Source: Leucosporidium creatinivorum | Taxonomy: Eukaryota; Basidiomycota; Microbotryomycetes; Leucosporidiales; Leucosporidiaceae | Assembly: GCA_001600635.1 (NCBI GenBank) | Contig: BCKL01000004.1 | Span: forward strand, 760,440-824,439 | Direction of reading: 5' to 3' | Length of the DNA: 64,000 bases | Part shown: positions 12,780 through 52,632 of the stretch, in pieces | Layout of the letters: each line of letters starts with the position of its first letter | How positions within the stretch are numbered: position 1 is the stretch's first letter | Position numbers and translations under genes: made by a program | Notes under the pieces: generated by a model | The model's database searches: none | The model's input: the letters and a program-made list of their open reading frames with translations, nothing else | What the model was told of the DNA's origin: nothing

Positions 12780-13180
12780 CTCGCATCTGACCTCCCGACC
12801 AAGTCCCTTGCCCCTTGCCTCGGCGTTGGCCGGTGGACGGCTGGCTCAAATCCGGCGAAGCAAAGGCAAGCAGAATAGGACTGTTAGCAGATTTCGAAAA
12901 CCAAAATCAAAGCCCGGTTGATCTAGTCGGTTATGATGCAGACCTAATACTTTCTCAAGCGTTTAGTCTGATGTCGGCGGTTCGATCCCGCCACTGGGCA
13001 CTCGATCTTTTTGCCTCCACTCGCCTCCCTGCTCAACTACGGGGCCGGGGAGGCTATACTTTGTGCTGTCGACACCTCCGCTACAGCCGAGCACACGCTG
13101 GAGCTTGGCGAGGGCATTGGAAGGGGGAGGAGCCGATGCTCGGCGTTCGTCTCGCCCGGCGGAGGACGGCTCTTAGCTTC
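12780..13180 (+). repeat. Dispersed tRNA-Ile cassette, copy A (flanks conserved with other copies)
   Basis: About 130 bp upstream (gacggctggctc, cggcgaa, caaagcccgg) and about 180 bp downstream (tgcctccactcgcctccc, gggccggggaggct, gatgctcggcgttcgtctc) of the tRNA are similar to the flanks of copies B and D. The repeated unit is therefore larger than the tRNA itself. Boundaries are estimated by eye. Confidence 0.6.
12912..13000 (+). tRNA. tRNA-Ile(AAT) with a 15-nt intron, copy A
   Basis: A full cloverleaf can be folded. The acceptor gcccggt pairs with actgggc (one G-U) and A is the discriminator. The D stem is atc/gat, the anticodon stem cagac/gtctg, and the T arm ggcgg-ttcgatc-ccgcc. The loop reads ct-AAT-a, then an intron at 12950-12964, then a, placing the intron after position 37 as in nuclear tRNA introns. 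Box B (ggttcgatccc) is perfect. A T5 run at 13008-13012 can serve as the Pol III terminator. Three identical copies occur elsewhere in the window. Confidence 0.88.
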
Positions 13181-45814: not shown

Positions 45815-45903
45815 TGCCCAGTGGCGGGATCGAACCGCCGACATCAGACTAAACGCTTGAGAAAGTATTAGGTCTGCATCATAACCGACTAGATCAACCG
45901 GGC
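45815..45903 (-). tRNA. tRNA-Ile(AAT) with 15-nt intron, copy B
   Basis: Identical to copy A over all 89 nt, on the minus strand, with the same 15-nt intron. A Pol III terminator is visible as aaaaa at 45802-45806. It may not be a separate gene: it sits in the 555-bp inverted repeat beside the assembly gap. Confidence 0.8.
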
Positions 45904-46333: not shown

Positions 46334-46349
46334 NNNNNNNNNNNNNNNN
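46334..46349. other. Assembly gap (16 N)
   Basis: Sixteen N. The base after the gap is the very first base of a tRNA-Ile (minus strand), and the stretch before it belongs to the 555-bp inverted repeat. Confidence 0.98.
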
Positions 46350-46438
46350 TGCCCAGTGGCGGGATCGAACCGCCGACATCAGACTAAACGCTTGAGAAAG
46401 TATTAGGTCTGCATCATAACCGACTAGATCAACCGGGC
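46350..46438 (-). tRNA. tRNA-Ile(AAT) with 15-nt intron, copy C
   Basis: Identical to copy A over 89 nt. No 3' flank or terminator is visible because the gap begins exactly at its 3' end. Its 5' end overlaps a target-site duplication made by the SINE-like insertion next to it, and the tRNA remains complete. Confidence 0.82.
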
Positions 46439-46447
46439 TTTGATCTT
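46428..46447. repeat. Target-site duplication, tRNA side
   Basis: Core atcaaccgggctttgat followed by ctt, identical to 46605-46624. It includes the first 11 nt of the tRNA (minus strand), so the insertion regenerated the tRNA 5' end. Confidence 0.75.
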
Positions 46448-46604
46448 TTTTTTTTTCTAGATTGTGAATTGGCAACATCACTAGAGCAAATCTACCGATA
46501 ACTCCAACTAGACGAATTGGCTCATAAGCCGACTACACCGGTAAGGGTGACGAATTGGATCCGGCCGACAGGCGTGTTGCTTGCCCAACTGGTTGATCTT
46601 AATT
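46448..46604 (-). mobile_element. SINE-like retroposon inserted in the 5' end of tRNA-Ile
   Basis: About 157 bp that interrupt the otherwise conserved upstream flank of the tRNA. Read on the minus strand, the insert ends in a run of A (T11 at 46446-46456 on the plus strand) and is bounded by direct repeats of about 20 bp (46428-46447 and 46605-46624, core atcaaccgggctttgat). A 3' poly(A) tail plus target-site duplication is the hallmark of L1-type retrotransposition. The element has no coding capacity. A weak box A-like string (aaccagttgggcaag) lies near its 5' end but I cannot define a good box B. Other tRNA-Ile copies lack it. Confidence 0.7.
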
Positions 46605-46624
46605 ATCAACCGGGCTTTGATCTT
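46605..46624. repeat. Target-site duplication, distal side
   Basis: Second copy of the direct repeat. It continues into the conserved upstream flank of the tRNA cassette (gattatcaaaa, then tgctgacaata on the plus strand). Confidence 0.75.
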
Positions 46625-52211: not shown

Positions 52212-52632
52212 TTGGTGTGGTAAGGCGAGAAGACGAGACGAGGTGAGCGAATGAGGGCAAGGAGCGGCGCTGCTGACTGAGCGCGCGCAAAACGTTGATC
52301 CTGTTCGCATGTTGTTGATGAGGACTGTGCACCGAGCACGAGTGAAGTTGCAGCATCCCCCACTATGCTCCTCGCTGCCCGTGTCTGACCTCCAGACCAA
52401 GCCCTATCCCTTTCCTCGGCGCTGGCTGCTCGACGGCTGGCTCGAACTCGGCGAAAATACGGCAAACAAGAGAACTCTATCAGCGGGATTTGTGAATCAA
52501 AGTTAAAGCCCGGTTGATCTAGTCGGTTATGATGCAGACCTAATACTTTCTCAAGCGTTTAGTCTGATGTCGGCGGTTCGATCCCGCCACTGGGCACTCG
52601 ATTCTTTTTGCCTCAACTCGCCTCCCTGCTCA
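52078..52632. repeat. Partner arm of the 555-bp inverted repeat
   Basis: Reverse complement of 45779-46333. Here it sits within an intact gene and an intact tRNA with both flanks, so this is the likelier genuine location. Confidence 0.8.
52508..52596 (+). tRNA. tRNA-Ile(AAT) with 15-nt intron, copy D
   Basis: Identical to copy A over 89 nt, with upstream flank (gacggctggctc, cggcgaa, gttaaagcccgg), downstream flank and a T5 terminator at 52605-52609. It is the best-supported of the copies on this side of the window. Confidence 0.88.

Follow-up and report, generated by a model that had tools for sequence, protein, structure and literature searches.

Poly(A)-ended retroposons just upstream of tRNA genes in the basidiomycete Leucosporidium creatinivorum: a probable L1-like LINE and its short partner

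In the genome of Leucosporidium creatinivorum, a short poly(A)-ended element and the 3' ends of two LINE families face tRNA genes, most often at a distance of 7 nt. The reading that we prefer, with a probability of roughly 0.86, is that target-primed reverse transcription by an L1-like LINE takes place where Pol III genes start, and that the LINE machinery also brings a short partner to these sites. The insert from which the analysis set out lies in a window of 64,000 nucleotides (the whole stretch of DNA that was analysed), and its relatives were sought in the whole assembly, which comprises 63 contigs with 27.7 Mb.

The window insert is bounded by a perfect 20-bp direct repeat, ATCAACCGGGCTTTGATCTT, for which the expectation in 100 shuffled sequences was 0.00 even when 3 mismatches were allowed. 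On the minus strand the order is the repeat, reading AAGATCAAAGCCCGGTTGAT, then 157 bp with a terminal run of A, the 20-base repeat once more, and a tRNA-Ile(AAT) gene. The A11 corresponds to a run of T on the forward strand, of which two T are common to the repeat and the run. The tRNA gene is 89 nt long and has a 15-nt intron, as found by ARAGORN with introns allowed; no tRNA emerged from the window with ARAGORN at its defaults or with Rfam at gathering thresholds, probably because of the introns and the bacterial settings of the default call. An exact match identifies the same tRNA sequence at three other places in the window, and all three lack the insert. One of them, at 12912, has a related upstream flank in which the target is present once, with 1 mismatch in 20, and thus represents an empty site within the window. 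The earlier note on this DNA had described a repeat of about 20 bp around 157 bp ending in A11, the lack of the insert in other tRNA-Ile copies, and a duplicated target that includes the first 11 nt of a tRNA left whole; each of these can be read directly from the window. A refinement concerns position: because the duplicated target takes in the first 11 nt of the gene, the intact tRNA is the downstream copy, and the insertion lies upstream of it rather than inside it. Coordinates are given in Table 1.

Table 1. Features of the insertion and of the tRNA-Ile genes in the window
Feature	Position	Strand	Source
Left (5') copy of the 20-bp target-site duplication	46605..46624	-	
Short retroposon, 5'-truncated, 157 bp with most of the poly(A) included	46448..46604	-	
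12-nt inverted-repeat motif GGCTTATGAGCC	46519..46530	-	
A11 tail; the A at 46446-46447 are common to tail and target duplication	46446..46456	-	
Right (3') copy of the 20-bp target-site duplication; holds the first 11 nt of the intact tRNA	46428..46447	-	
tRNA-Ile(AAT), intact, 15-nt intron, 7 nt downstream of the A-run	46350..46438	-	ARAGORN
16 N, from an assembly gap or a withheld stretch, directly abutting the 3' end of the tRNA-Ile	46334..46349	.	
tRNA-Ile paralogue without insertion, related upstream flank	12912..13000	+	
tRNA-Ile paralogue without insertion	45815..45903	-	
tRNA-Ile paralogue without insertion; 220-nt upstream flank identical to that of the 45903 copy	52508..52596	+	

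Two further observations concern the window itself. The tRNA-Ile copies at 45903 and 52508 form an inverted pair, and the identity of their flanks suggests a recent duplication or gene conversion. The window also encodes a protein whose relatives have oxysterol-binding-protein domains; among the best 120 of 150 hits, those with names come from Ceratobasidium, Hermanssonia, and Microbotryum, at 33-37%.

Is the window insert a member of a family? It has at least 8 matches in the assembly, and the longest short copy, used as query, has at least 13. Among the 13 matches listed are six copies of the short element, two tails only (C24 and C11b), and five 3' ends of longer elements (C5, C11, C3, C12, and C10). 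The six short copies comprise the window copy (C4a), C4b, C32, C13, C27, and C10. C4b, 30 kb away, is 99% identical to C4a and has the same flanks and tRNA, so that the two are probably one insertion that was duplicated later; the remaining four are 90-93% identical to the window copy. The start points differ among copies, a variable 5' truncation of the kind found in LINE insertion products. Two copies, C27 beside a tRNA-Leu and C10 beside a tRNA-Ala, begin at exactly the same base, next to short duplications, and this base is taken as the probable true 5' end, which would give a full-length element of about 259 nt plus poly(A). Such an element is repeated and too short for a reverse transcriptase (RT) gene. 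The longest short copy has no Rfam match up to an E value of 5 and no tRNA-, 5S-, or 7SL-like head. The designation SINE-like in the earlier note is therefore upheld by size, repetition, and a tail shared with a LINE, and not by a recognised Pol III head; used of this element, SINE has a functional sense that is not proven. The genome-wide search which that note had proposed as a check has thus yielded copies at different tRNAs with different flanks and short duplications, together with LINE 3' ends that have the same tail.

The shared tail links the short element to LINEs of the same genome. Bases ~62-270 of the short element align to the LINE 3' UTR with 68-70% identity over about 200 nt, and the likeness is greatest in the final stretch before the poly(A). 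Six 3' ends of a first LINE family share this region, the sixth (C32) having come from a search with the tail pattern. A second family, whose RT is 51% identical to that of the first over 312 residues, adds five 3' ends. Pieces of the first family match RVT_1 (L021, E 4.9e-15) and zf-RVT (L020, E 4.6e-06, 27.7 bits against a cut-off of 27.5), and the RT of the second family matches RVT_1 with an E value of 2.4e-19. RNase H had no match in the LINE pieces scanned, which matched RVT_1 and zf-RVT. The tRNA-targeting elements show no LTRs; they end in poly(A) and are 5'-truncated. Among the LINE copies read none is intact; each shows truncation, an interruption, a broken reading frame, or runs of N that cut it.

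A database search with the RT piece gave 14 proteins among 7995 scored candidates, ten of them with organism names. Nine of the ten come from Microbotryum, Sporobolomyces, or Microbotryomycetes sp., both genera being Microbotryomycetes. Relatives of the LINE carry RVT_1 together with Exo_endo_phos or zf-RVT, and in two relatives, P0004 and P0006, the endonuclease domain PF03372 is above the cut-off alongside RVT_1. It is probable that the LINE of L. creatinivorum also encodes an APE endonuclease; its own match to PF03372, in L023, falls below the cut-off (E 0.065), and the assignment leans on the relatives. The best match of P0004 among solved structures, by PDB sequence match, is the LINE-1 ORF2 protein (E 1e-18), ahead of R2. 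P0004, with both endonuclease and RT domains, is also the tenth named relative, and it belongs to a metagenome bin labelled Pseudomonas amygdali; the bin is probably a mislabelled fungal contig or a case of fungal contamination. In collections of bacterial/archaeal and of viral contigs, no relative was confirmed.

Several other features of these loci were recorded. At C32 the LINE appears to hold a nested Ty3/gypsy-like element with a chromodomain (L062 about 5632 to L063 6583, ~160.1-167.1 kb), which has an open frame of 1671 amino acids with protease, RT, RNase H, integrase, and Chromo domains, and terminal repeats of at least 98 bp. Two paralogous tRNA-Lys loci on C11, L015 and L019, lie about 19 kb apart and have their flank in common. 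The LINE sequence is about 1.27 kb long at one of them, and the other has only a ~54-nt tail; this difference may have arisen by two separate insertions at the site or by a deletion within one. The assembly also has other LINE-like RTs: the search that gave them had 16 RVT_1 matches, and further RT-encoding places include G000 C26:156531, C26:161794, C26:192176, and C5:116423.

The 3' regions have a second feature in common. The 12-nt motif of the short element (Table 1) is found in the 3' UTRs of both LINE families, either exactly or as GGCTYATGAGTC. Genome-wide, the motif GGCTYATGAGYC has 28 strand-wise matches, compared with 20 for a reversed control; 17 of the matches are in counted elements and 11 elsewhere, the latter consistent with background. 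Folded 3' ends were no more stable than shuffled sequences. Since the motif is near chance level elsewhere and the folds are no stabler than shuffles, the suggestion of a hairpin bound by the RT is not supported.

The strongest regularity is the position of the 3' ends. All 19 counted ends (those of six short copies, two tails, six first-family LINEs, and five second-family LINEs) face a tRNA gene, and tRNAs for eight amino acids are represented; the idea of safe-haven targeting, which the earlier note had raised from one case, is strengthened by the whole set. At 15 of 15 ends analysed with ARAGORN, the poly(A) is immediately followed by a tRNA on the same strand, and the genes are those for Ile, Gly (three anticodons), Asp, Leu, Ala, Lys, Val, and Pro. 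The gaps between A-run and mature tRNA at these ends are 7, 7, 52, 12, 7, 7, 6, 7, 18, 7, 8, 9, 10, 16, and 8 nt, the last being an end of the second LINE family. Searching with the 3' UTR of that family added ends at C7 (tRNA-Pro, gap 8), C8 (tRNA-Val, gap 5), and C12b (tRNA-Gly, gap 8); these gaps were counted by eye, and C8 was read for its A-run and tRNA only, the element there being a search match. The nineteenth end, C12c, adjoins its tRNA by coordinates alone. Thus, 17 of the 18 junctions read lie 5-18 nt upstream of the tRNA, with 7 nt the commonest distance; the exception, at 52 nt, is the short copy C32. The poly(A) is A7-A13 at 15 of 15 ends, as found by a script that sought runs of 6 or more A, and the tail of C12b is only AGAAAAA.

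The duplications are less regular. In copies other than that of the window they are about 3-7 bp when read by eye, with ambiguity at the A residues (for example AAAACCA, AACTT, AAAAC, and CGC), and an automatic search outside the window copy gave matches of at most 7 nt or none. At C13 and at the C11 LINE the target duplications could not be resolved. The duplication of about 20 bp reported in the earlier note therefore holds for the window copy and is an exception in the family.

How readily could such an arrangement come about by chance? A random insertion within 60 nt upstream of a tRNA gene and in the right orientation is expected at about 5e-4 per insertion, given 485 putative tRNA genes (an unscored first-look count; 63 were scored). 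Merging C4a with C4b, C11 with C11b, and the three second-family ends on C12 leaves at least 15 independent insertions. The tail pattern provided a control: with up to 3 mismatches it has 30 matches, and all 13 that belong to family copies have poly(A) and, in the next 300 nt, a tRNA, while all 17 background matches lack both. The latter, namely a 2-mismatch match at C35 and 16 of seventeen 3-mismatch ones, were rejected as family members. Also excluded from the counts were C8:789108, which covers query bases 1-146 only and has no 3' end, and three further rows of the second-LINE 3' UTR search, which match only the tRNA part of the query.

Paralogous tRNA-Ala loci offer a direct comparison of occupied and empty sites: L081 is empty, L082 has a LINE, and L083 has the short element at almost the same base. 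The empty site has a near-tandem 7-mer (CAACTTG CAACTTC, L081 884-897) at the insertion point, which could be the scar of an aborted insertion. At another tRNA-Ala locus, L080 on C22, a run of A9 follows TTGGCCAATTTGTGACCCC and ends 10 nt upstream of the tRNA; it has only a weak 25-nt match to a LINE tail and was left out of the counts. From its sequence, it looks like the decayed insertion of another, perhaps related, element.

How might these insertions arise? Orientation, poly(A), 5' truncation, and duplications are the established marks of target-primed reverse transcription by LINEs, and from this combination we infer the same process here. The window insert would derive, with loss of 5' sequence, from a short, non-autonomous retroposon (~259 nt plus poly(A)) that ends in poly(A) and is mobilised in trans, through the common 3' region, by the L1-like LINE of the same fungus. 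The LINE machinery would be guided to tRNA genes, which Pol III transcribes, and in their 5' flank its endonuclease would nick the cDNA-priming strand about 7 nt upstream of the mature tRNA. The 3' junction would then lie near the expected start of tRNA transcription, the Pol III leader being put at about 10 nt in the sources consulted (PMC5911963, PMC5014426). The poly(A) end of the LINE or short-element RNA would be reverse-transcribed at the nick, and a cut in the second strand a few bases off would produce the short duplication. In the window copy the nick in the primer strand would have been made in the usual place and the second cut 20 bp away, inside the tRNA, so that 11 nt of the tRNA were duplicated and the gene remained whole. 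A tight spacing recurs at tRNAs of unlike sequence; its simplest guide may be recruitment of the LINE machinery by the Pol III initiation complex, through TFIIIB or a similar factor, for which TRE5 and Ty3 offer precedents.

Other origins for the pattern deserve comparison with that mechanism. The one with most weight, though we still consider it unlikely, is that the short copies are 5'-truncated 3' UTR fragments of some other LINE subfamily, of which the assembly lacks the long copies. The alignment of bases ~62-270 to the LINE 3' UTR at 68-70%, the differing truncation points, and the N runs that cut LINE copies are all in keeping with such an origin. It accords less well with the identical first base of the copies at tRNA-Leu (C27) and tRNA-Ala (C10), next to short duplications. 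Moreover, the first ~60 nt of the short element have no significant match in five LINE-bearing loci, where the short copy at C32 is itself the sole strong match, and a search in which the longest copy was extended by 22 nt of flank gave no relative of greater length.

Insertion could instead have been random, with survival only upstream of tRNA genes because insertions at other sites were selected against or lost. This has the general argument of a compact genome behind it, and nothing measured in its favour except that the search counts are lower bounds. It sits badly with the uniform orientation and with the tight spacing (most often 7 nt, and 5-18 nt in 17 of 18), and neither any of the 19 counted ends nor any of the 13 family matches to the tail pattern lies away from a tRNA. 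Selection alone is no sufficient explanation of spacing at the level of single bases, and we regard this origin as highly improbable. Even less credence attaches to the idea that the mobile unit includes the tRNA gene, or that the repeats stem from duplication of a tRNA cassette, with no targeted insertion at all. There are repeated tRNA-Ile genes nearby, C4a and C4b look like one insertion copied along with its tRNA, and the second-family copies on C12 look like duplicates with one tRNA type. Against this, the same elements are found upstream of tRNAs for eight amino acids, the flanks outside the element differ, and paralogous empty sites consist of tRNA and flank without the element. Cassette duplication is ruled out as a general explanation by the different tRNAs and the empty sites; the earlier note had named a single-copy sequence with repeats of this origin as the outcome that would speak against its view, and a family at different tRNAs was found.

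A separate question is raised by the tails of the short element. In L001-L007 (window 46457-46490), near-identity over about 225 nt gives way to strong differences in the last ~32 nt before the poly(A), and the variable part lies 20-50 nt from the tRNA. The six short copies have 19 variable columns in an alignment of 260, and 14 of these are among the final 45 (Fisher P 2e-8); the last columns of the alignment touch the A-run of the C4 copies. Counted against the majority sequence by distance to the tRNA, substitutions occur at 15 of 158 sites at 20-60 nt, at 8 of 958 sites further away, and at 0 of 3 nearer; one of the two C4 duplicates is omitted from this count, and the majority letters are arbitrary where columns tie. 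The copy that lies 52 nt from its tRNA, C32, has three substitutions, none of them within 80 nt. For one pair of LINE copies, aligned over 943 columns, the final 71 account for 3 of the 12 mismatches. Pairs of tRNA loci that have no element give mixed support to transcription-linked mutation: the differences within 60 nt are 9 of 17 for L072/L073 (over 240 nt), 16 of 34 for L071/L073 (over 118 nt), 2 of 7 for L066/L068 (over 160 nt), and 0 of 5 for L075/L076 (over 430 nt).

Mutation linked to tRNA transcription, which reportedly occurs near tRNA genes in other organisms, is the favoured but not proven source of the tail differences. An error-prone start of reverse transcription may be the source instead. 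Selection on a hairpin in the tail is not favoured: one arm and the loop vary, the other arm is constant, and some copies have a weak hairpin or none. States shared by some tails, for example between C4 and C32, argue for some pre-existing variety among templates. It is at 20-50 nt upstream of the tRNA that most of the differences among copies are found, and if transcription-linked mutation is the true source, they would be a trace of tRNA transcription.

How new is this arrangement? In the parts of a 2018 review consulted, the tRNA-targeting non-LTR elements are those of dictyostelids only (TRE5, TRE3, NLTR-A, and NLTR-B), and the tRNA-associated elements of fungi are LTR elements only (PMC5911963). 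Another source states in general terms that some non-LTR lineages target tRNA genes (PMC8869645), and the specific cases in the literature found, which includes PMC10886601 and PMC6875170 as far as consulted, are all dictyostelid. A search of openly licensed literature, consulted in part, found no report of tRNA-gene targeting by a non-LTR element or SINE of a fungus. As far as seen, the strategy is thus a known one in a new host kingdom, with the addition of a second LINE family and a short partner. A broader proposal, for which we consider the chances evenly divided, is that a Microbotryomycete clade of L1-like LINEs with at least two families evolved tRNA targeting at the Pol III start independently of dictyostelids, that a short parasite consisting almost entirely of LINE 3' UTR uses this machinery to reach the sites as well, and that the tails record mutation caused by tRNA transcription, as near-identical copies before many tRNAs would allow.

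The system is of interest on two counts. A fungal case, with spacing near the Pol III start and a co-targeting partner, is a natural test of how L1-like elements find safe sites, and as a compact system from the yeast group it lends itself to the question of whether an L1-like endonuclease is guided by Pol III factors. Near-identical copies at different tRNAs are also a mutation reporter for the question of whether tRNA transcription mutates its own 5' flank.

The known systems each share some of these features. Dada elements likewise target tRNA genes; they are DNA transposons that insert inside the genes, and not retroposons (PMC8869645, in the part consulted). AfuSINE2 and AfuSINE3 of Aspergillus fumigatus resemble the present short element in being short, low-copy, and fungal; AfuSINE2 has duplications of 4-14 bp, and one AfuSINE member resembles LINE-like sequence. 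However, they have the tRNA or 5S heads that are absent here, and the sections consulted describe pericentromeric, subtelomeric, and gene-rich sites and mention no tRNA targeting (PMC5063351). Ylli of Yarrowia lipolytica and Zorro of Candida albicans are fungal L1-like elements with poly(A), as is the present LINE. Ylli has an apurinic-type endonuclease, an RT, and many 5'-truncated copies, and in contrast to the present LINEs it is not described as targeting tRNA genes in the text consulted (PMC5014426); Zorro1 and Zorro2 are given as subtelomeric (PMC7175516), whereas the sites here are tRNA flanks.

The closest parallels in target choice come from other types of element or other hosts. Ty3 of Saccharomyces cerevisiae inserts 1-4 bp upstream of the site at which Pol III starts transcription (PMC5911963), and the present elements likewise lie near the expected start; it is an LTR retrotransposon with an integrase, whereas the present elements are poly(A)-ended, 5'-truncated, and without LTRs. 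TRE5 of Dictyostelium discoideum is, like the fungal LINE, an L1-type non-LTR element found upstream of tRNA genes, and its ORF1 protein is reported to interact with TFIIIB; its insertions lie 40-54 bp upstream, compared with mostly about 7 nt for the fungal elements (PMC5911963). NLTR-A of Dictyostelium purpureum is a tRNA-targeting non-LTR element of an amoeba, with an RNase H domain after the RT, whereas the fungal pieces scanned matched RVT_1 and zf-RVT and no RNase H; the portion of the source consulted mentions no short partner such as that of the fungal LINE (PMC5006619). At 2-6 bp, its spacing is the closest known to the 5-18 nt of the fungal elements.
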